Assembly (NCBI RefSeq): GCF_011045165.1 | Contig: NZ_JAAKZI010000002.1 | Span: forward strand, 1-64,000 | DNA: 64,000 bases | From: Arthrobacter silviterrae | GTDB lineage: Bacteria > Actinomycetota > Actinomycetes > Actinomycetales > Micrococcaceae | Direction of reading: 5' to 3' | Shown: one piece after another, positions 35,431 through 46,211 of the stretch | How the letters are laid out: each line of letters begins with the position of its first letter | Numbering within the stretch: the stretch's first letter is position 1 | Notes under the pieces: model-generated | The model's database searches: none | Told to the model about the DNA's origin: nothing | Seen by the model: only the letters and a program-made list of their open reading frames with translations | Program-made: the position numbers and the translations under genes

Positions 35431-35448
35431 TGATAAGGGGACTTATCA
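35431..35448. promoter_or_regulatory. Inverted repeat upstream of the restriction-modification operon
   Basis: TGATAAG and CTTATCA (7-base perfect arms, 4-base centre GGGA), 75 bases ahead of the start at 35523. A candidate operator for the HTH protein encoded first in the operon or for another controller. The AT-rich region 35405-35460 around it differs from the surroundings. Confidence 0.5.
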
Positions 35449-35522
35449 ACAAGTTGTTCACAGGGTGTGAATTGCCGCCTAAGCTGTAGACGCGGCCATA
35501 GTGCGGATCGAAGGGAGGGCGC

Positions 35523-37577
35523 GTGGACAATCAAGGAACGGCGTTGCGCATCTCCTTGGCGGAAATTGCGGCCCTGGCCCGGGTAAAGCGCCCCGTGGTG
35601 TCCATGTGGCGCACCCGCAGCGCGAACACGCCCGCACCGTTCCCGGACCCGGTCCGCGTTCTGCGCGGCCAGCAGCTTTTCGATGCCCTGGAAGTCGGCA
35701 CCTGGCTGGACGCAACCCAGCACGGCAACAACCCGCAGGCGGCGGCGGACATGGCCGCGTTTGCCCGGGCGGACTCCGCCCGGACGGATCCGGAGGCGGC
35801 CTTTGCCGCCCAGTCCGCCCTCATCACGCTGCGCCGGCTGACGGGCGGCCCCCTGCAAGGGCTCGGCACCGCGGACTTGCTGGACGCCGCCGACGAAGTA
35901 GACCCGGATGACGAGTTTCTCTACTCGGAAATCGAGGGCCTGGGCCAGAGCGCCGCGGCTGCTGCCGCCCAGGCCGACCAGCTGGTCGACGCCGCCTACT
36001 CCCCTGCCGCCGCGCTGGAGCAGCTCCTGGGTGACCGTTTCCGGGCGGGCCTGCGCGGCCAGGCGGAAACGGCCCTCGCGGACGCCGCCGTCGCGCTGGC
36101 AGCACGGACCGCCGCGGAACTGGCTCGGGACAGCGCAGGCGGGCGGCCCGTCTTCGTCGACGCCACAGCCGGCGGCAGCGACGTGCTCGTGGCGGTGCTG
36201 GACCTGCTGCCCGAGGACGCGGACCCGGTGGTCCTGACCCGCGACGGCCGCGACCCGGCATCCCGCACTGCCCTCCGCCGGCTGCTGGTCCACGGAGCGC
36301 GCCGCAGGCCGCTGGTCGTGCCGAAAAGCGGCCAGTTCACCGTCGGGGAGCCCGCCGTCCACGTGGCCGCCTATCCGCCGCCCGGCGCCCCCGGACTCGC
36401 GCCCCAGGACATCCTGGCTGACATCGAGAACACCGTGCTGCAGATGGATGACTCGCAGCGCGGTGTGGTCATGGCCCCCGCCTCAGTGCTCACGGACGCC
36501 CTGGACAACCCCAGGGCAGCCGAAGTGCGCTCGGACCTGCTGCGCTCGGGCCGGGTGCGCGCCGTGGTCCGCCTGCCCGCCGGCCTGGTCCCCGCCAAGA
36601 CGCGCCAGGCCCTGGCCCTGTGGGTGCTGGGGCCCGCCCACGCGTCGGTGCCGATCGCCGAGCGCTGGACCATGGTCGCCGACCTCACCGACACCCCACT
36701 GACGGCCGCCGTGGTCCAGGACCTGGTGGGCGACCTCGCCGTGTCCCTCGGGACGGCGGGCCTGATCCGCGCCCATTCCATGCGCTTTGCCCGCGTTGTG
36801 CCCACCTCTCGCCTGCTGGCCCGCCGCGGCGCCCTGGTGCGGAACGGCGCCGGCCCCCGCAGCGACCCCACCGCGGCCGAGCAGGCAGTCAGGGTGGACA
36901 GCCTTGTCGCGCAGCTCAACGATCCAGCCGCCGCCCCGTCGCCCCTGGCCGTCCGGGTGTCGCTGGGCCACGGCACGCCGGGCGCCGCCTCCGTCGAGGA
37001 ACTGCTGGCCCAGGGCCACCTGCGCTATGTCAAGGGCGTGCGCCTGGCCGCCGGCCTGCCCCTGGCGGACGACGGCGGCGCCCGGGTTCTCGGCCCAACG
37101 GACCTTGGGCACGGCGAGGGGAAGGGACGCGGTGGTGCGCCGACACGGCGGATTGACCGCCTGGTCCTGGCAGCCTCCCACCCCAATGCGCGGCTGACCG
37201 AGCCCGGCGACGTCGTCTTTGTTACGGCGCCGGCACCGTCGGCGATGGTTGACGCTGACGGCGGGGCCGTCGTCGAATATCCGGCGCGGGTGCTGCGCAT
37301 CAGCGCGGCGGATCCGGGCGGGCTCATGCCGGAACTGCTCGCAGCGGACATCAATGCGGCCCGGTCCAGGGACTGGCGGCACTGGCTGCTCCGGCTGGTG
37401 CCGCACGCCACGGCGCAGGAACTGCGGCCCGTGCTGGCCCTGCTGGAGCAGGAACGCACCGCGGCCCGGCTCCGGCTGGAACGCCTCACAGAACTCACCA
37501 CGCTCCTGCGCGACGGCGTCAGCGCCGGCGGGCTGGCCGTGGACGCTACGATCGAAACGACCCACAAAGGAAGCTGA
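35523..37577 (+). CDS. Degenerate HsdM-like protein with N-terminal HTH, ahead of hsdM
   Basis: 684 residues; GTG 35523 with GAAGGGAGGG upstream. Residues about 9-35 look like an HTH (SLAEIAALARVKRPVVSMWR). Residues about 100-420 follow the layout of type I methylases, but the motifs are damaged: DATAGGSD (residue about 213) replaces the SAM-binding DPACGSGG, and AYPPPG (about 283) replaces the catalytic NPPF/Y. The later VVMAPASVLTDA, VRAVVRLPAGLVPAKT and ALWVLGP strands keep the HsdM pattern. The C-terminal 200 residues look like an HsdS-like recognition half with a long helix (LLEQERTAARLRLERL). It ends 3 bases before hsdM, so it is made with it. Probably a non-catalytic subunit or regulator of this type I system; the function is not established. 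Confidence 0.7.
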   Translation: MDNQGTALRISLAEIAALARVKRPVVSMWRTRSANTPAPFPDPVRVLRGQQLFDALEVGTWLDATQHGNNPQAAADMAAFARADSARTDPEAAFAAQSALITLRRLTGGPLQGLGTADLLDAADEVDPDDEFLYSEIEGLGQSAAAAAAQADQLVDAAYSPAAALEQLLGDRFRAGLRGQAETALADAAVALAARTAAELARDSAGGRPVFVDATAGGSDVLVAVLDLLPEDADPVVLTRDGRDPASRTALRRLLVHGARRRPLVVPKSGQFTVGEPAVHVAAYPPPGAPGLAPQDILADIENTVLQMDDSQRGVVMAPASVLTDALDNPRAAEVRSDLLRSGRVRAVVRLPAGLVPAKTRQALALWVLGPAHASVPIAERWTMVADLTDTPLTAAVVQDLVGDLAVSLGTAGLIRAHSMRFARVVPTSRLLARRGALVRNGAGPRSDPTAAEQAVRVDSLVAQLNDPAAAPSPLAVRVSLGHGTPGAASVEELLAQGHLRYVKGVRLAAGLPLADDGGARVLGPTDLGHGEGKGRGGAPTRRIDRLVLAASHPNARLTEPGDVVFVTAPAPSAMVDADGGAVVEYPARVLRISAADPGGLMPELLAADINAARSRDWRHWLLRLVPHATAQELRPVLALLEQERTAARLRLERLTELTTLLRDGVSAGGLAVDATIETTHKGS

Positions 37578-37580
37578 GCA

Positions 37581-39290
37581 ATGGCACCGAAGAAAAGCAC
37601 CGCGAAAAAAGTGGATGCCGCCCCGTCCACCATGAAGGAACTCAAGGACACCCTGTGGAAGGCCGCAGACAAGCTGCGTGGCTCCATGGACGCGTCCCAA
37701 TACAAGGACGTCATTCTGGGCCTGGTGTTCCTCAAGTATGTCTCGGATGCCTTTGACGAGCGGCGCGAGCAGATCCGCGCGGAGCTGGCGGCGGACGGCC
37801 TGAACGAGGAGCAGGTGGGCCAGCTGATCGACGACGCCGACGAATACACGGGACGGGGCGTGTTTTGGGTCCCGCCGCGTGCCCGCTGGCCGTACCTGGC
37901 GCAGAACGCCAAGGGAACGCAGGCCACCCTGGACGAGCACGCCAAGGGCATTGGCGAGCTGATCGACGACGCCATGGCGTACATCATGGGTGCCAACCCC
38001 ACGCTGGCCGCCACCCTGCCCATGATCTTCAATAGGGACAATGTGGACCAACGCCGCCTGGGCGAGCTGCTGGACCTGTTCAACTCCGCCAAGTTCACGG
38101 GCAACGGCGCCACGAAGGCCCGCGACCTGCTGGGCGAGGTGTATGAATACTTCCTGGAGAAGTTTGCCCGTGCCGAAGGCAAGAGGGGCGGCGAGTTCTA
38201 CACCCCGGCCGGCGTGGTGCGGGTGCTGGTGCAGGTGCTCCGCCCGGACCACGGCCGTGTGTACGACCCCTGCTGCGGTTCCGGCGGCATGTTTGTCCAG
38301 GCCGAGAAGTTCCTGGAGGCCCACCACCGGGAGGGCTCCGAAATCTCCGTCTATGGGCAGGAGCTGAATGAGCGCACCTGGCGGATGGCCAAGATGAACC
38401 TGGCCATCCACGGGCTCAACGGCAACCTGGCCTCGCGCTGGGGAGACACCTTTGCCCGGGACCAGCACCCGGACATGCAGGCGGACTTCATTATGGCGAA
38501 CCCGCCATTCAACATCAAGGACTGGGCCCGGTCTGAGTCCGATCCCCGCTGGAAGTATGGCGTTCCGCCGTCCGGGAACGCGAACTACGCGTGGATCCAG
38601 CACATCATTTCCAAGTTGGCTCCGGGCGGTTCGGCGGGCGTGGTCATGGCGAACGGGTCCATGTCTTCGAATTCCGGCGGAGAGGGCGAAATCCGGGCGC
38701 AGCTCGTTGAGGCTGATCTGGTGTCCTGCATGATCGCGCTCCCCACGCAGCTGTTCCGCTCCACGGGCATCCCCGTGTGCACCTGGTTCTTCGCGAAGGA
38801 CAAGACCGTGGGTGCGCACGGTTCCGTGGACAGGACCGGACAGGTGCTGTTCATCGACGCCAGGAACCTGGGCCACATGGTGGACAGGGCCGAGCGTGCT
38901 CTGAGTGATGAGGACATCGCACTGATCGCGGACACTTTCCACGCCTGGCGAGGGACACCGGTGGTTGAGCCTGTCGAAACCCCGGTGGTCGAGCCCGCCG
39001 AAACCCCGGTGGTCGAGCAGCGAGCTCTGCGAGCGCGTCGAGACCCAGACCTCCCCGAAACCCCGTACGCCGACATCCAGGGCTTCTGCTACTCAGCCAC
39101 TCTCGCCGAGATCAAGGCCGCCGACTACGCCCTGACCCCCGGCCGTTACGTCGGCGCCGCAGAAGTAGAGGACGACGGCGAGCCGATCGAAGAAAAGATC
39201 GCCCGCTTGTCCGCCGAACTCTTCGCCCAATTCGACGAGTCCGACCGTCTGGCCGCAGTCGTCCGTGAGCAGCTGGGGAGGGTTTCATGA
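37581..39290 (+). CDS. hsdM: Type I restriction-modification methylase subunit HsdM
   Basis: 569 residues. N-terminal helical domain (KLRGSMDASQYKDVILGLVFLKY), then an N6-adenine methylase fold with intact SAM motif DPCCGSGGMF (residue 229) and catalytic NPPF (residue 307). FYTPAGVVRVLV and GVPPSGNANYAWIQHII are also typical. Residues about 460-489 are translated from a dispersed DNA repeat (VVEPVETPVVEPAETPVVEQ) inserted, in frame, between IADTFHAWRG and the conserved YADIQGFCYSATLAEI...LTPGRYVG end. The insert is in a surface loop of the family, so activity may be kept. It overlaps hsdS by 4 bases. Confidence 0.94.
   Translation: MAPKKSTAKKVDAAPSTMKELKDTLWKAADKLRGSMDASQYKDVILGLVFLKYVSDAFDERREQIRAELAADGLNEEQVGQLIDDADEYTGRGVFWVPPRARWPYLAQNAKGTQATLDEHAKGIGELIDDAMAYIMGANPTLAATLPMIFNRDNVDQRRLGELLDLFNSAKFTGNGATKARDLLGEVYEYFLEKFARAEGKRGGEFYTPAGVVRVLVQVLRPDHGRVYDPCCGSGGMFVQAEKFLEAHHREGSEISVYGQELNERTWRMAKMNLAIHGLNGNLASRWGDTFARDQHPDMQADFIMANPPFNIKDWARSESDPRWKYGVPPSGNANYAWIQHIISKLAPGGSAGVVMANGSMSSNSGGEGEIRAQLVEADLVSCMIALPTQLFRSTGIPVCTWFFAKDKTVGAHGSVDRTGQVLFIDARNLGHMVDRAERALSDEDIALIADTFHAWRGTPVVEPVETPVVEPAETPVVEQRALRARRDPDLPETPYADIQGFCYSATLAEIKAADYALTPGRYVGAAEVEDDGEPIEEKIARLSAELFAQFDESDRLAAVVREQLGRVS
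38958..39045 (+). repeat. Dispersed repeat tract A-A-B inside hsdM
   Basis: Unit A (24 bp, CCGGTGGTTGAGCC...) at 38958-38981 and 38982-39005, then unit B (40 bp) at 39006-39045. The tract is in frame with hsdM. Confidence 0.9.
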
Positions 39291-40480
39291 GCGACTGGAC
39301 AGCTTTAGAACTTGGGGCTTCGCTTGAAGCTCTGATCGACAATAGGGGGAAGAACCCACCCTACGAGACTGACGGGGTCCCAACAGTTTCCGGAATGACA
39401 GTTAGCCCTGGCGTCCTTGACCTCGCTTCCGCCAGAAGGGTATCGCATGAGACGTGGCAGCAGTGGATGCCTGAACCCACCAAGCGGAATGATGTCGTCC
39501 TGACTAGTGAAGCACCGTTGGGGCGTGCCGCATTGGTCCCCACCGATGATCCTTTGGTACTAGCCCAACGCGTGTTCGGTCTCCGCGGAAAACCCGGCAT
39601 TTTGGATAGCAGATTCTTGTATTACGCGTTCCAAACCGCCGCCGTCAAAGCTGATTTGCAAGGCCGCGCAACGGGTACCACCGTACTGGGTATCAGACAG
39701 CCTTCCTTGAAGAAAGTTCAGATTCCGGCACCATGCTACGCCGAACAGCAAGCCATCGCAGAAGTCCTGGGCGCCCTCGACGACAAGATCGCCGCCAACA
39801 CCAGAATCGCTGCGACAGCTGAACTGTTGGCGGCGTCACTCTACCAAAGAGCGCTCAAAGAGGCTGAATGGTCCAACCTGACCTTCGCCGATTTGGCACA
39901 AGTCTCAGGTGGCGGGACACCAAGCACAAAGACGCCGGAATACTGGGATGGCGATATTCCGTGGGCTACCCCGACCGATCTGACCGCTCTTCAAGGCCCA
40001 TATTTGGAGGCGACGTCGCGAACTATTTCAGCCGACGGCCTATCCGCATGCGCGTCGCCTTTGTACCCGAAAGGCTCGATTCTCATGACGTCGCGGGCTA
40101 CTATCGGAGCGTTTGCCATTGCGCAATTGCCTACCGCGGTCAACCAGGGATTTATTGTCGTGCAGCCCAACGACCCAGCATTGGACTATTGGATTTTCCA
40201 TGAAATGCGGAGCCGTGTTGACGAGTTCATTTCGCTGGCGAATGGAGCCACATTCCTGGAGCTCAGCCGAGGAAACTTCAAGAAGTTCAAAGTTAGACTT
40301 GCCGCCGACTCCGTCATAACCGGCTTCACTGAACAGGCGAGACCCTTGCATGATTCCGCTCGCATGGCCCTCTTGGAAAATACCAAGCTCGCCGCAACCC
40401 GTGACGCCTTGCTCCCCCAGCTGATGTCAGGCAAGCTGCGCGTCAAGGACTTGGAGTCGATCGTCTCCGCGGCAATCTAA
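39287..40480 (+). CDS. hsdS: Type I restriction specificity subunit HsdS
   Basis: 397 residues. Two target recognition domains: residues about 5-165 and 195-365. The conserved helical spacers are AEQQAIAEVLGALDDKIAAN (about 148-167) and LENTKLAATRDALLPQLMSGKLR near the C-terminus. It would set the bipartite DNA site for HsdM and HsdR. Base composition is clearly lower in GC than hsdM and changes within the gene, as expected for exchange of recognition domains. ATGA overlap with hsdM. The recognised sequence cannot be read from the protein. Confidence 0.92.
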   Translation: MSDWTALELGASLEALIDNRGKNPPYETDGVPTVSGMTVSPGVLDLASARRVSHETWQQWMPEPTKRNDVVLTSEAPLGRAALVPTDDPLVLAQRVFGLRGKPGILDSRFLYYAFQTAAVKADLQGRATGTTVLGIRQPSLKKVQIPAPCYAEQQAIAEVLGALDDKIAANTRIAATAELLAASLYQRALKEAEWSNLTFADLAQVSGGGTPSTKTPEYWDGDIPWATPTDLTALQGPYLEATSRTISADGLSACASPLYPKGSILMTSRATIGAFAIAQLPTAVNQGFIVVQPNDPALDYWIFHEMRSRVDEFISLANGATFLELSRGNFKKFKVRLAADSVITGFTEQARPLHDSARMALLENTKLAATRDALLPQLMSGKLRVKDLESIVSAAI

Positions 40481-40941: not shown

Positions 40942-40974
40942 GTGGTTATGTACCAATATCAGGTACATAACCAC
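40942..40974. promoter_or_regulatory. hipBA operator palindrome
   Basis: Perfect 13-base arms GTGGTTATGTACC (40942-40954) and GGTACATAACCAC (40962-40974) with a 7-base centre, ending 18 bases before the hipB start. AT-rich surroundings (40865-40940) should hold the promoter. Such dyads are where HipB-HipA complexes repress their own operon. Confidence 0.75.
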
Positions 40975-40992
40975 GGCGTCGAAAGGGTTGCA

Positions 40993-41292
40993 ATGACGAG
41001 CACGCCGACAACCACAAGAGTGGGCGCCTCACTACGCGCGCGGCGGATCAGCCTTGGATTGTCACAGTCGGGCCTCTCCGACCAGCTCGGCATTTCCAGG
41101 GCGAGGATCAGCGCCATGGAGAATGGAGTATTCGGCAACGCCAGGCTCCTTTTCGAAGTGTCGGAAGCCTTGGGGCTCGACATCTTCCTGCTCGCCCGGG
41201 AAGAGAAAGTGGCCCGCGAAATTCGCCACAACCAGGAATCCCAACAAGGCACAACCAGGGGCACCAGGGTCAAGAGGACCAGCCGTGGATGA
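40993..41292 (+). CDS. hipB: HipB-type antitoxin/repressor
   Basis: 99 residues from ATG 40993 with GAAAGGG 5 bases upstream. XRE HTH: LRARRISLGLSQSGLSDQLGISRARISAMENG (residues about 14-45), then ALGLDIFLLAREE. The Lys/Arg-rich tail (TRGTRVKRTSRG) is unusual for HipB. Translated together with hipA (8-base overlap). It would bind the palindrome upstream and hold HipA inactive. Confidence 0.88.
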   Translation: MTSTPTTTRVGASLRARRISLGLSQSGLSDQLGISRARISAMENGVFGNARLLFEVSEALGLDIFLLAREEKVAREIRHNQESQQGTTRGTRVKRTSRG

Positions 41293-42574
41293 CTTTCTGA
41301 ATGTCTGGCTGAACGGCGTCCATGTTGCTGCGCTAACGTCCGACGGCCCCGGTGGGGGCGCATCGCTCACGTACACGCCTGAGGCCATCGAGAGGTGGGG
41401 GTTGGGATTTCCTCTCCTCTCCGTCCGGCTGCCGGTCTCAGGCGACAGGTACCCCGCAACGATGACCCGCGCCTTCATTGACGGCTTGCTCCCAGAAGAC
41501 CACATCAGGGCCCTGCTGGCAGATAAGGCCCGAGTCGCCACGGACGACTCCTATGGCCTGCTGCGCGCATACGGCATGGACTGCGCCGGGGCCATACAAG
41601 TGCTTGACGCCGAGTCGGAGGCAGCCGCCCGCAACGGCACCATCCGATGGTTGAACGAGACTGAGCTTGCAGACGCCGTCGCCGACCTCCCCTCGGCGCC
41701 GCTGGGAGTCTCAGTTACCCCGGGAGTGCGTTCAAGTTTGGGCGGCCTGCAAGGCAAGCTCGTTGTCGTCGTCGACGGCGGCCGTATTGGCTTACCCCTC
41801 AATGGGCAACCATCAACACACATCCTCAAACCGGCACGGCTAACCGAAAAAGGACAGGAACGCTGGCCAGGCATAGCCCAGTTGGAGACCTGGGGACTGC
41901 GGCTCATTAGAGCGGCCCACGCTGCAGGGGTATCCGCCAATGCAGCCGGTGCGCGCGTGATCAACATTTCTGGCCGGCCTGCAATTCTGGTCAAGCGATT
42001 TGATCGTGAAATCAACGCCGCCGGGGACGTCCAACGCATTCACCAAGAGGATTTCGCCCAAGCCCTCGGAATCAAGGAAAAATACCAGCGGGACGACAGC
42101 ACCCCGCCTCGGCTTATCGACACGGCAGCGTTGCTCGCCAGCCATGCAACGACACCAGCCCAGTCCCTCATTGAGCTATTGGAACTGGTGACCATCAACG
42201 CCGCGATCGGCAATTGCGACATGCATGCAAGGAACCTGGCGCTCTTACATCGTGATGGGAAGATCGGGCTGACACCTGCCTATGACGTGGTCCCAACAGC
42301 CGTTTGGTCCGACCACGACCGGGAATTGGCACTGCGCATTGGTGACGAGGCATTTCTCGACGACCTTCGGGGCGTTCACCTTGAACGGGAGGCGGTTTCA
42401 TGGGGCATGCGGCGGCCTGTTGCCAAAAGGACTATCAAGCGCACACTCGACATTCTCACCCAGGAACTGCCCGGCGTCCGGCAGGTTGCTGTTGAAGAAG
42501 GGTGGGATCACCCCATGCTGGATGTCGCCACAAGCGATGCACTTGCGCGCGTCGAGCTCTTGCGCTTCCAATAG
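41285..42574 (+). CDS. hipA: HipA-type Ser/Thr kinase toxin
   Basis: 429 residues from GTG 41285, inside the hipB 3' end. HipA features: the SSLGGLQGKLVVVVDGG nucleotide loop (residue about 150), THILKPA, catalytic Asp in GNCDMHARNLALL (residue 312), and metal Asp in AYDVVPTAVW (residue 334). HipA of E. coli phosphorylates glutamyl-tRNA synthetase; the target here is unknown. Both key Asp are present, so it is likely active. It lies between hsdS and hsdR. Confidence 0.92.
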   Translation: MDDFLNVWLNGVHVAALTSDGPGGGASLTYTPEAIERWGLGFPLLSVRLPVSGDRYPATMTRAFIDGLLPEDHIRALLADKARVATDDSYGLLRAYGMDCAGAIQVLDAESEAAARNGTIRWLNETELADAVADLPSAPLGVSVTPGVRSSLGGLQGKLVVVVDGGRIGLPLNGQPSTHILKPARLTEKGQERWPGIAQLETWGLRLIRAAHAAGVSANAAGARVINISGRPAILVKRFDREINAAGDVQRIHQEDFAQALGIKEKYQRDDSTPPRLIDTAALLASHATTPAQSLIELLELVTINAAIGNCDMHARNLALLHRDGKIGLTPAYDVVPTAVWSDHDRELALRIGDEAFLDDLRGVHLEREAVSWGMRRPVAKRTIKRTLDILTQELPGVRQVAVEEGWDHPMLDVATSDALARVELLRFQ

Positions 42575-42646
42575 TCGTACACCGCCCCGGCACCGGATGC
42601 ACCGGCAGCCAAGGCGGCCGTCGAAAGGAGGGGTTCTCAACTTCAG

Positions 42647-44452
42647 TCAGAACGAAGCGAGCAGCCTAACGTTCACCTCACCTGGGTCAAAGGCCTTGGG
42701 ATCCAGCAATTCCCCGGCGGCCAGGCCCAGCCAGTCCCGGTATTCGTCATGCTGCTCATGGCTGGGATCGTTGACCGCTTCCACCATGGACTCCCAACCC
42801 CACACGCCGCCGCTGTCCTCGGCCGGCCCGGCACCCCGGCCGCCGGTACAGCGGACGGCGGGGACACCGCCGTCGTACGGAAGGACCTTCTCCAAGGTGA
42901 CCGTGTGCTGCCAGTCGTCGCCAAAGTCATAGACGTAGGTGATGGCGTCCTTCTCGGCCGAGAGCAGCTCGCCAATCTTCACGGCCGACTCGTCGATGGG
43001 CATCGGGTCGCCGAAGTCGAACTCGGGCCCCACCGGCCCATACGCCGTCCCGCCGTAGCCGCCCACCTGGAATTCGTGGAGGTGCGAATCCATCCACCCG
43101 AATGACAGCTGCAGGACCTGGTGCATCTGGTCCAGCGTGAGGTCGGAACGCAGCACCAGGCGGCGCCAGATGGGCGGCTTGGACCCCTTGAGCATGACCT
43201 TCAGCTGCAACAGCCGGGCAGGGGCACCGGATTTCCGCCGCTTGCGCTTGGCGATCTTCGGCTCGGGCGCCTGCTCCGCAGGCCAGGAGTCGTCGTTAGG
43301 GAAACCGGCATGCACGACGGCGAGAATCGACGGCGCCACGGCGGGCGGCACGGCAATGATTCCTTCCATGGTGACCAGGCCCAGCTCGGCCAGCTCGGCC
43401 ATCCGCTCCTGCAGGAGCCTGGCACCGAACTCATTGACGTCCAGGGCCTCCAGATTGTCCGGGTCAAACAGGGCCGCGGCCGGAACCGGCGCGTTGGCAC
43501 ACGCCGCAAAGAGGACCGAGGCCTGCGCCATGGCCGCCTCCGGAACCCACGGTGCCCATTCCACCTCGCCCACGATGGCGACGGCCAGGAACTTGGTGGT
43601 GAAATCGCGCAGCACGGCTAGACGACCGGGGTGGCCGGGCACCAGGAATTCCTCGGCGAGCGGGGTGGGCCAGACCTTGGTGGAGCCGATATCGACGAGC
43701 CCGCTTGCATCCAGGGCCACCCAGAACTTGTCCAGCAGCGGGAGCTCCCGCATGGACTTGACCGTGCGGACATGGCCCGGCGGTGCGTGTTCAAGGCTGA
43801 AGAACGGCAGCTGCTCGCGCTTGGCGTTGGCTTTGGCACCCCTGGCCGCCACCCCGACGGCGGCTGCGGCCGCCTCGATGTCCTTCAGGCGCAGTGCACC
43901 CGTGGACGTGACATCCTTGCCCGAGCCGATCCACGTCAGCAGCGCTTCCATCCTCTGGGCCAGCACGGTCCCTTCGAGGCCGGCCAGTTCCTCCTGCTCC
44001 GTCAGGATCGGGAGAGTGACTTGCGGCAGCACCCTTTCCTCCTTCATGTGAAACAGGTCATCCACGGCCTCGAAGTCCTCATCCGTCCCGGTCCAGGCGT
44101 CCGTTGCGCTGAGGAATTCCAGATACACGTGAACGGCGTGGAAGGCGAAGCCGGCCCAGTCTTCTTCGTCGTCGGGCTCGGACAGGACCGCCTCCATGGC
44201 GAGCCCGAACGGGGCCGGTTCAAAATTGGTGGCCGCCGCTGCGGGCGATGCGTGGAAATAGGCGGCAACAAGACGCTTGACGGGACCCAGCAACACCAGC
44301 GCGTCTTCGGCAGGAACGTTCTCCGCCTCCCGGCACCAATCAACAAACGCCGGCGTGATGGCGTCCACGGCGCGGGATGCGCGCAGTTCGCCGACCGACG
44401 TCACGTTGCGGTGGGCGGTTTTTGATTTGGGGCGGGTCGTTTTCTTGGCCAT
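42647..44452 (-). CDS. Plasmid pRiA4b ORF-3 family protein
   Basis: 601 residues. The C-terminal 185 residues form the PRiA4_ORF3/IS1096 TnpR-like domain: LKVMLKGSKPPIWRRLVLRS, MHQVLQLSFGWMDSHLHEF, YVYDFGDDWQHTVTLEK and a C-terminal WGWESM. The long N-terminal part (residues 1-400) is helical with no family I recognise. The domain is common in mobile and defence regions but has no settled function. Its position between hipBA and a broken nuclease gene fits an island gene. Confidence 0.75.
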   Translation of the reverse strand: MAKKTTRPKSKTAHRNVTSVGELRASRAVDAITPAFVDWCREAENVPAEDALVLLGPVKRLVAAYFHASPAAAATNFEPAPFGLAMEAVLSEPDDEEDWAGFAFHAVHVYLEFLSATDAWTGTDEDFEAVDDLFHMKEERVLPQVTLPILTEQEELAGLEGTVLAQRMEALLTWIGSGKDVTSTGALRLKDIEAAAAAVGVAARGAKANAKREQLPFFSLEHAPPGHVRTVKSMRELPLLDKFWVALDASGLVDIGSTKVWPTPLAEEFLVPGHPGRLAVLRDFTTKFLAVAIVGEVEWAPWVPEAAMAQASVLFAACANAPVPAAALFDPDNLEALDVNEFGARLLQERMAELAELGLVTMEGIIAVPPAVAPSILAVVHAGFPNDDSWPAEQAPEPKIAKRKRRKSGAPARLLQLKVMLKGSKPPIWRRLVLRSDLTLDQMHQVLQLSFGWMDSHLHEFQVGGYGGTAYGPVGPEFDFGDPMPIDESAVKIGELLSAEKDAITYVYDFGDDWQHTVTLEKVLPYDGGVPAVRCTGGRGAGPAEDSGGVWGWESMVEAVNDPSHEQHDEYRDWLGLAAGELLDPKAFDPGEVNVRLLASF

Positions 44453-44458
44453 CCCACC

Positions 44459-45021
44459 ATGCTTTCACATGGGGCAGGTGGCCGGCTGGCGGCGGGCAAG
44501 GAACTTCTGGTTCGGGAAATGGCTGCTGAGGGCTGGGGTGCCAAGATGGTCTTGCGGCTTGCTGCCGATCTTAAGGAAAAGTTTCCTGAGGCACGCGGAT
44601 ACTCATCGCGATACCTACGTTATATGAAGTCGTTTGCCGAGGCCTGGCCCGATCTTCAAGAAGTTGCAAAAGGCTGTTGCAACTTTGCCATGAGGATACA
44701 ACGTCATGTTGTTGGAGAAGCTCGTTCGCCCCAAAGTGGGACATTGCGGCAATTGTGAAAGCGCAGCTTTCACAATTGCCGTGGTACCACCACATTGCGC
44801 TTATGCAGAAGCTCAGCGATCCCGATACCCGCCTCTGGTACGCAGCGGCCGTCGTCGAACATGGCTGGTCCCGCAACGTGCTGGTCCATCAAATCGAAAT
44901 CCGGCTGCACGAATGTTCCGGACAGGCCATCAGCAATTTCAAGGCCGTTCTCCTGCCGGAGGAGTTCAAATCCAGCCTGCCGAGCATCGAACTCTTGGAG
45001 GCGGAACTGCGCGGCGGGTGA
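44459..45021 (+). pseudogene. Broken DUF1016/YhcG PDDEXK nuclease gene
   Basis: Two fragments in different frames. First (44459 to about 44655): GKELLVREMAAEGWGAKMVLRLAADLKEKF and GYSSRYLRYMKSFAEAWPDLQEV, the N-terminal HTH of DUF1016. Second (about 44760-44960): LSQLPWYHHIALMQKLSDP, LWYAAAVVEHGWSRNVLVHQIE and AISNFKAVL. About 100 bases between them are foreign to the family. The C-terminal PD-(D/E)XK nuclease half is absent. So the gene is inactive through insertion, frameshift and truncation. The stretch 44453-45047 holds no intact gene. Confidence 0.8.
44748..44780. repeat. Perfect 15-bp inverted repeat in the broken nuclease gene
   Basis: GGCAATTGTGAAAGC (44748-44762) and its exact complement (44766-44780) with a 3-base loop GCA, at the junction of the two fragments. 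Might be a scar or end of the inserted DNA. Confidence 0.75.
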
Positions 45022-45047
45022 CTGCTGGCGAGAGCGCAAGCAAGCCT

Positions 45048-46211
45048 TTAGGGAATGCCTCCGAAGTTATCCTGGAGAATGCTCGGGAGGAAACCCAGCT
45101 CGTCCAGCTGCCGGATGATGAACGGCGTGAGCGGCCCGGGTGCCATGACAAGCCGGTAGCTTCGCTTTCCCTCAGCCACCGGTTGGATCAACCTCTTATC
45201 GACAAGCCTGCGGATGTGCTGGCTGCGTACCGGTATCGACCCGGGAATGGCCGATTCTAGATCTGATGCCCTGACTTCAGTCAACCTTGCCACTATGTCA
45301 AGAGCACTGGCGTCGCGTATCGAATATGCACCGGCGTCCACGCCACGCTTGATGGCCGGTCGAAGTAGGCGGTCCAGGACAAACGACCCATCGCTGAGTC
45401 TGTTCAGTTTCTGCAGATCATTGAGCATGCCTTCCAGAAGGTATTGGCACCACCTGATAATGGCATCCGGCTTCAGGGAATCGGCGTCTTCAAGCATTCG
45501 ATAGTACAAGGACCGGTCCGCACCGAAGACAGTTGTCGGGTTGACCGCCCGATACTTTGTGGTGTCGGTGAAGCCTTGGGACACCATGATCGCGTATGTA
45601 AAGAGCCTGCATACCCGCCCATTTCCATTACCAAAAGGGTGTATCCAGACAAATCGGTGATGAGCAATGGCCACTTTGAGCAGGTCATAGCTCCGCTCAA
45701 CCGGTCGATTCACAAAATCAAGCAGCTCACTCATGTCGCCCTGCACCGCAACCGGCGACGGAGGAGTATGGGCTGATCCGCCGATTGTGACGTCAGTGGT
45801 CCGATATGCTCCCGGCGTCCGGTCGCCTTCTCGTTTCAGTCCCAAGACTGCAATCTTGTGAAGTTCCCTGACTAGGCCGTGCGTGATTGGACTGCCGGGC
45901 TCAACGACTTGGTCAATAAGGGCGGCCGCCTCCTGAAGCTGGACAATTTCCTTTACCCCTTCAGCCGCCGTTGAGTCGCCCATGCCCGTGTATGTTGCGG
46001 CTCCCTCGACAGCATCGACGATGGATGTCCTGTTCCCTTCAATGCGCGCGCTCATGATGCTCGCCATCAGTTGAAACAGCGACTTCAGCTGTAGAAACAC
46101 GGCTGGATGGGTGGTTCCGCCCCCAAGATCTCCGCGCATCCGTTCCAGATCGATGATTGTTCCAGCCAACGGAGAGCTGAAGGAGAAGTCCGGAAATTCA
46201 ATGCTCTGCAT
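45048..46211 (-). CDS. Fic-domain protein (AMP transferase)
   Basis: 387 residues. Fic motif IHPFGNGNGRVCR, with the catalytic His at residue 191; the family ends HxFx(D/E)GNGRxxR, and here Asn replaces the usual Asp/Glu. An inhibitory helix with SARIEGNR (S54...E58-G59) places it in class II (self-inhibited). The C-terminal third has a winged-helix-like domain (VRSQHIRRLVDKRLIQPV). It would transfer AMP to a protein when released. It sits back to back with hsdR. Confidence 0.9.
   Translation of the reverse strand: MQSIEFPDFSFSSPLAGTIIDLERMRGDLGGGTTHPAVFLQLKSLFQLMASIMSARIEGNRTSIVDAVEGAATYTGMGDSTAAEGVKEIVQLQEAAALIDQVVEPGSPITHGLVRELHKIAVLGLKREGDRTPGAYRTTDVTIGGSAHTPPSPVAVQGDMSELLDFVNRPVERSYDLLKVAIAHHRFVWIHPFGNGNGRVCRLFTYAIMVSQGFTDTTKYRAVNPTTVFGADRSLYYRMLEDADSLKPDAIIRWCQYLLEGMLNDLQKLNRLSDGSFVLDRLLRPAIKRGVDAGAYSIRDASALDIVARLTEVRASDLESAIPGSIPVRSQHIRRLVDKRLIQPVAEGKRSYRLVMAPGPLTPFIIRQLDELGFLPSILQDNFGGIP

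Follow-up and report, generated by a model that had tools for sequence, protein, structure and literature searches.

The window analysed here, a stretch of 64,000 nucleotides (nt) of Arthrobacter silviterrae DNA (contig NZ_JAAKZI010000002.1, positions 1 to 64,000, from a genome of 4.29 Mb in 106 contigs), contains a type I restriction-modification (R-M) operon headed by a gene hereafter referred to as X, which is preceded by the interrupted palindrome TGATAA-N6-TTATCA (Table 1). The original prediction placed a 684-residue protein before hsdM and an intact HsdM three bases further on, and both were found: X, with a GTG start codon, is an open reading frame (ORF) of the forward strand, three bases separate its stop from the hsdM start, and the HsdM motifs are preserved. 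The ratio of nonsynonymous to synonymous substitution (dN/dS) was 0.22–0.29 for X in six pairs and 0.06–0.08 for HsdM in three pairs. X is therefore under purifying selection, and is a real and conserved gene heading the operon; this ratio and its conservation rule out a pseudogene or a chance ORF.

Table 1. Features of the X-hsdM-hsdS-hsdR locus, in positions of the window
Feature	Position	Strand	Remark
Operator-like palindrome TGATAA-N6-TTATCA	35431..35448	.	Unique in the genome at ≤1 mismatch
-10-like hexamer TAAGCT	35480..35485	+	Exactly 31 nt past the palindrome; no recognisable -35
Gene X, 684 aa	35523..37577	+	Winged helix-turn-helix, dead N6-methylase fold and HsdS-like half (predicted)
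X residues 8-68, winged helix-turn-helix	35544..35726	+	Predicted structure
X residues 206-435, methylase fold	36138..36827	+	NPPF gone, S-adenosylmethionine motif eroded
X residues 487-672, HsdS-like half	36981..37538	+	Target-recognition-like domain plus long helix
Shine-Dalgarno-like AAAGGAAG	37566..37573	+	End of X, ahead of hsdM
hsdM, 569 aa	37581..39290	+	ATG start; NPPF and DPCCGSGG intact
hsdS, 397 aa, specificity subunit	39287..40480	+	Two Methylase_S stretches
hsdR, 1068 aa	46467..49673	+	

The AlphaFold model of X, computed from a 15-sequence alignment (mean predicted local distance difference test score, pLDDT, 74.8; predicted template modelling score, 0.56), consists of a winged helix-turn-helix (HTH) domain (helices 12–19 and 23–33, strands 45–47 and 50–54, helix 55–65), a helical region (residues 71–205), a methylase fold, a linker and a C-terminal half. 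In Foldseek searches, the model matched type I M subunits first (7eew, 7vs4 and 3lkd, with E values down to 1.7e-9), and the M subunits of EcoKI and EcoR124I were among the lower-ranked matches. X is thus predicted to have an HsdM-type methylase fold, as the original prediction had proposed from its strand order. Sequence comparisons with X itself yielded no Pfam match and no PADLOC anti-phage defence family (both at E 5), two NCBIfam matches at chance level, and only marginal matches in the PDB (best 2okc, E 0.076). Among 23 aligned relatives, six matched Pfam N6_Mtase at E ≤1 (best 3.3e-4) and one matched HTH_17 (8.8e-4). A profile-profile comparison of X with its own HsdM by hhalign gave nothing (probability 0.2%), and the relationship to methylases therefore rests on structure and on weak Pfam matches. 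Residues 437–684, modelled separately (pLDDT 75.6), matched HsdS structures first (3okg, E 1.8e-6; also 1yf2, 5ybb and the S subunit of PacII), and hhalign paired the C-terminal part of X with the first half of the HsdS of its own clade (probability 74.5%, E 2.7e-5). An HsdS has two target recognition domains (TRDs) and two conserved helical regions, whereas X has one TRD-like domain and one long helix; its C-terminal part, which had been recognised as HsdS-like, is half an HsdS according to the model.

The catalytic motif (N/D/S)PP(F/Y/W) was absent from all 46 X proteins (38 of them distinct and three partial) at the family and genome_contigs loci and from all 48 at loci L064–L077 and L114–L147 (some partial). 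The S-adenosylmethionine (SAM) motif of the window X is degraded to DATAGGSD, but a GxG-type motif is kept by some relatives (DPWPGYGD in L018, DPAAGAGD in L066), so the catalytic motif has been lost uniformly and the SAM pocket unevenly. The loss of both motifs that had been claimed thus holds for catalysis throughout, and for the SAM motif here but not for all relatives. Class-wide, the HTH is the best conserved domain, with a mean pairwise identity of 47%, versus 20–38% elsewhere in the protein (13 proteins).

This HTH is not restricted to X. Solitary HTH-N6_Mtase proteins, likely the nearest relatives of X, carry this HTH at the N terminus, with a methylase domain behind it; the 15 that we inspected (L078–L092) were all HTH proteins, and 14 of them displayed HsdM-like similarity in the same reading frame. 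The HTH proposed as a gain of X is therefore present, but its having been gained is doubtful. DPACGxG is kept by 11 of the 15 proteins and NPPF or NPPY by three (L080, L085 and L092). In several solitary relatives, DPACGxG is kept but NPPF is replaced with DPPT, DPPA or EPPL, so some of these proteins may bind SAM without methylating DNA. A further solitary HTH-N6_Mtase protein of Actinomycetes was found at L056:5848-7776. Unlike X, these proteins have no TGATAA palindrome upstream, the best match, in upstream sequences measured from the HTH, having four to six mismatches in all 16 cases (L078–L092 and L056).

X is linked to essentially one lineage of HsdM. A search of 395 family genomes (E 1e-3) matched 59, one of which (G065) carries a solitary HTH-methylase. 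At 57 of the 59 places in these genomes with an HsdM of at least 78% identity, X lies directly upstream on the same strand (the matches in G098:C102 and G015 being taken as one span each), with aligned ends 6–95 nt apart in 56 cases and 666 nt apart in one with a short X alignment. The exceptions are G079, in which X is lost and, by eye, only X-tail-like sequence remains ahead of hsdM, and G105, in which X and hsdM are split over two contigs. Conversely, HsdM lies downstream from 57 of 60 X copies, the others being those of G105, G349 (a partial match) and G391, where residues 1–388 of X run into hsdR. On a tree of 55 chosen HsdM sequences, the X label requires two changes, against a mean of 10.3 after shuffling. 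The presence of X next to hsdM is not erratic, and the original view of a conserved non-catalytic partner of hsdM is upheld.

Outside the family, 75 of the 296 genomes of a class sample matched at E 1e-3, most of them over the HTH alone; the true X copies are those of loci L064–L077. HsdM adjoins X in 10 of these 14 loci and lies about 0.9 kb further on in L073; in the others, the contig breaks off (L074) or the locus holds an N-terminal piece of X with no hsdM in the flank retrieved (L076 and L077). In three other families, X matched in 14 of 170, 5 of 35 and 20 of 131 genomes at E 1e-35. HsdM adjoins X in 29 of 34 further loci (L114–L147) and lies about 0.8 kb on in L146; in L137 and L142 it is 3 kb away, separated from X by two genes of which one is for an amidase, and in L123 and L124 the sequence ends too soon to show hsdM. 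A family set (f26) gave two matches out of 22, both already known, and, among the 159 genomes of a phylum sample, only the window's own X matched at E 1e-20, a threshold that would retain 13 of the 14 class-sample loci. Some loci are present in two collections, and counts given as distinct or unique are free of duplicates. X also matched five plasmid records, in which it is annotated as 'hypothetical protein', and one unannotated phage record; in the four plasmids and the phage record opened, X precedes hsdM, hsdS and hsdR (5/5). The phage record, MT835479.1 from the human gut (X-hsdM-hsdS-hsdR at L149:9001-16919, palindrome with one mismatch), may represent either a system carried by a phage or bacterial DNA assigned to a phage by mistake. 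Two 706-aa proteins with an X-like HTH (L049:4183-6300 and L050:5692-7809, both on the minus strand) lie directly upstream from an HsdM of 51% identity; beyond the HTH they were not recognised by Pfam, and they are perhaps a far diverged second branch.

The palindrome lies 74 nt before X, outside the coordinates covered by the original prediction. In 390 family genomes, 60 exact copies were found, 41 of them 56–170 nt upstream of X and 19 elsewhere, including four in genomes that also carry X. An exact site is present at 41 of the 57 X copies searched, and the other 16 have one or two mismatches; G029, a C-terminal piece, had no upstream sequence. G391 and G393, outside the 390-genome search, both have exact sites, as do L013, L016 and L017, whose broken or gapped X genes were left out of the alignments. 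The class set L064–L077 has the palindrome at 14 of 14 loci (six exact, four with one mismatch, two with two, and two with the variant TGTTAA/CGTTAA). In L114–L147, collected once the pattern had already been fixed, it was found at all 33 loci with an X N-terminus (L125, without one, was left out of this count): eight sites are exact, 15 have one mismatch, six have two, two have three, and two more are exact except for a 5-nt spacer. The four plasmids and the phage record all have it (two exact, three with one mismatch). Of 3400 resampled upstream sequences, none reached one mismatch, 12 reached two and 110 reached three. The spacer at X loci is mostly G+C. Seven of the 19 stray exact sites begin TGATAAGC and four read TGATAAGCNNGCTTATCA; the stray sites may belong to another regulator. 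A scan labelled the palindrome a minus-strand terminator-like site, and an RNA hairpin or terminator was considered as its cause; the fold is unremarkable (z -1.0), and this explanation was rejected because the -10 box follows at a near-fixed spacing.

This spacing was measured in 51 unique upstream sequences: a TAnnnT hexamer starts exactly 31 nt past the palindrome in 40, at 32 nt in five and at 33 nt in four, and in L114–L147 it lies at 31–34 nt in 29 of 33 loci. At the -35 position of the 51 sequences, no column exceeds 0.46 bits, and a sigma-70 scan found nothing. If TAnnnT is the -10 box, the palindrome would be centred near -52. Activator-dependent promoters are typically marked by constant spacing, a binding site above the -35 position and the lack of a -35 element. 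The near-fixed distance to the -10 box and the missing -35 element therefore argue for activation of X-hsdM-hsdS(-hsdR), and X would probably be an activator rather than a repressor. Translation of X and hsdM also appears to be coupled. The X stop and the hsdM start overlap by 1 nt (TAATG, TGATG or TAGTG) at 34 of 45 loci, in 30 of 37 distinct contexts, and the last codons of the overlapping X genes usually carry an AAGGAAC ribosome-binding sequence; in the clade of the window the gap is 3–14 nt.

Taken together, these sequence patterns lead us to favour, as the probable explanation, that X is a transcription factor of methylase origin devoted to its own type I operon; it would bind the palindrome and activate transcription. 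Control of expression is thus the best supported of the three roles originally suggested, through an operator that had not been reported at that stage. In the proposed scenario, a solitary HTH-methylase-TRD protein would have lost catalysis and become fixed ahead of an hsdMSR operon. X would bind TGATAA-N6-TTATCA upstream of its own promoter, probably as a dimer, which a palindromic site suits, and would turn on X-hsdM-hsdS(-hsdR); the conserved stop/start overlap would then cause HsdM to be made in step with X. We consider X to be the reader because the DNA-binding protein constantly associated with the site, in different families and on plasmids alike, is X; the HTH is most likely the part that reads it. 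Half-HsdS dimers recognise interrupted palindromes, and the half-HsdS of X could read the site instead. HsdM, which holds HsdS by its helices, might hold X likewise, and this is a possible input. A tentative extension is that X is a decoy of the methylase, an HTH fused to a dead M-half-S body: by sensing free HsdM with its HsdS-like half, it would tie expression of the operon to methylation capacity.

Several observations weigh against this explanation. HTH-operator covariation, which might have served as proof of the reader, gave mixed evidence and was dropped: L070 and L071, with TGTTAA/CGTTAA, do have a changed recognition helix (SRQAVSMW), but in L118 the half-sites are changed (CGGTAA/TTACCA) and the helix is ordinary (RRPVVSNW), and RRPVPT and QRPVPT helices are paired with near-exact and exact sites. 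The three-mismatch sites (L118 and L147) are weak singly, because 110 of the 3400 resamples reach three mismatches, and the palindrome was not found at the weak relatives of X in L049 and L050. The hsdR gene of the window is 6 kb away, past minus-strand genes, so that the X promoter may not drive it here. Locus L048 (4996-6627, minus strand) has open hsdM, hsdS and hsdR genes but has lost X and the operator, with only X-tail-like sequence left ahead of hsdM; X is therefore dispensable. The stop/start overlap and the covariation of X with HsdM fit a structural subunit equally well, and the operator could in principle belong to an unlinked host factor.

The structural alternative, in which X is chiefly a non-catalytic subunit of an X-HsdM or X-HsdM-HsdS complex and the operator belongs to some other regulator, would have parallels in METTL14, which supports METTL3, and in the M2 of PacII, which joins M1 and S. 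Besides the overlap, it would account for the HsdM-like fold and the HsdS-like half with its long helix, for the near confinement of X to one HsdM clade, and for the correlation of X identity with HsdM identity (r 0.77 over 105 pairs from 15 loci, versus 0.08 with HsdS). However, such a correlation is also expected from the common descent of linked genes, and it is the contrast with HsdS that matters. Furthermore, hsdM, hsdS and hsdR are a complete set, which L048 retains without X, and in G895 and G881 two genes (3 kb) lie between X and hsdM, X still being behind the operator. That X holds its position at the operator in L137 and L142, where two genes intervene before hsdM, is easier to reconcile with a regulator than with a strictly coupled subunit. 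As this alternative also leaves the operator unexplained, we regard it as rather unlikely. Because X tracks HsdM and not the variable HsdS, a variable specificity arm is unlikely too: in nine close pairs, the TRD-like part of X is 69–77% identical and HsdS only 27–50%. The third, variable recognition arm that had been suggested, widening or changing the target of the system, has the HsdS-like half in its favour, but its TRD-like part is conserved where HsdS diverges, the correlation with HsdS being 0.07, and we consider this role very improbable.

The identity of the reader and the sign of the regulation are separate matters. An unlinked regulator of the host, such as one of the Fur/Zur type with TGATAA-type boxes, might read the palindrome and leave X with some other role; this would be consistent with the 19 of 60 exact sites in family genomes that are not at X, two of which have AT-rich spacers and look Fur-like. 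However, the only site in this genome is at X, several families as well as plasmids have the site at X, its spacers there are mostly G+C, and among the proteins of the locus X is the HTH protein that stays constant, all of which makes this explanation improbable. Repression of the operon by X, that is, negative autoregulation through the same operator, deserves more weight and is a distinct, if minority, possibility: RptR, a first-gene regulator of type I systems, is a repressor (PMC12255303), and M.SsoII represses its own gene (PMC3978073). Against it stand the location of the site above the -35 position, the near-fixed distance to the -10 box and the lack of a -35 consensus, which led us to prefer activation.

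X can be compared with several regulators and methylases. C proteins are small HTH proteins of about 80–100 aa that are unrelated to methylases, and X, with 684 aa and a winged HTH, is unlike that family proper. X nevertheless shares with the R-M controllers the combination of an operon-linked, DNA-binding-type protein and a conserved promoter site, the latter by association, and the sequence data are best read as making it a functional counterpart of C proteins, HsdC or RptR with a different body. Between hsdS and hsdR, the window (40942-46211) contains a toxin-antitoxin pair, hipB-hipA (HipA_C, E 1.1e-38), together with PRiA4_ORF3 and Fic genes on the minus strand; in locus L005, a YhcG/DUF1016 nuclease occupies this interval instead. 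Systems with RptR, from Gammaproteobacteria, are likewise described as having toxin-antitoxin genes between hsdS and hsdR, and RptR, like X, is encoded by the first gene of the hsd operon and has a palindromic site at its own promoter (PMC12255303). However, RptR, an alpha-helical protein of 9 kDa, binds to TAGCTA repeats that cover the -10 box (PMC12255303), whereas X is derived from a methylase and an HsdS and its candidate site is a single interrupted palindrome of 18 bp lying upstream of the -35 position. M.SsoII resembles X in that an HTH is joined to a methylase body and that the promoter of its R-M genes contains an inverted repeat, but it belongs to a type II system, has C5 methylase activity and acts as a repressor (PMC3978073); X has an N6/type I fold from which the catalytic motif is missing, together with an HsdS-like half. 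In Mollicutes, HsdC is a regulator linked to hsd operons, with its own site at the restriction operon, but this site consists of direct repeats, (GTGTTAN5)2 (PMC5282649). The non-canonical type I M1M2S system PacII also has a second M-like protein beside the first, but M1 (NPPF) and M2 (NPPY, m4C) are both reported as catalytic (PMC9613975), whereas X lacks both motifs and carries an HTH and half an HsdS in addition. RptR, HsdC and M.SsoII illustrate that restriction operons, hsd operons among them, may possess regulators of their own and that a regulatory HTH can be part of a methylase. None of RptR, HsdC, PacII and M.SsoII, as far as the cited sources describe them, combines a dead methylase, half an HsdS and an HTH, and no description of a protein like X was found among the titles and abstracts listed in searches of the open-licence PMC literature.

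The control of type I systems entering new cells is only partly understood. EcoKI restriction is kept in check by proteolysis of HsdR, and few small dedicated regulators of type I systems have been described (PMC12255303). If the decoy extension were true, the controller would gauge modification potential before restriction, which would be useful when the operon reaches a new cell on a plasmid. A widespread actinobacterial type I lineage appears to carry a dedicated controller derived from a dead methylase. Active-looking solitary methylases, degraded ones and the controller coexist in the same class and, if our reading is correct, they would mark out a route from an enzyme to a transcription factor.

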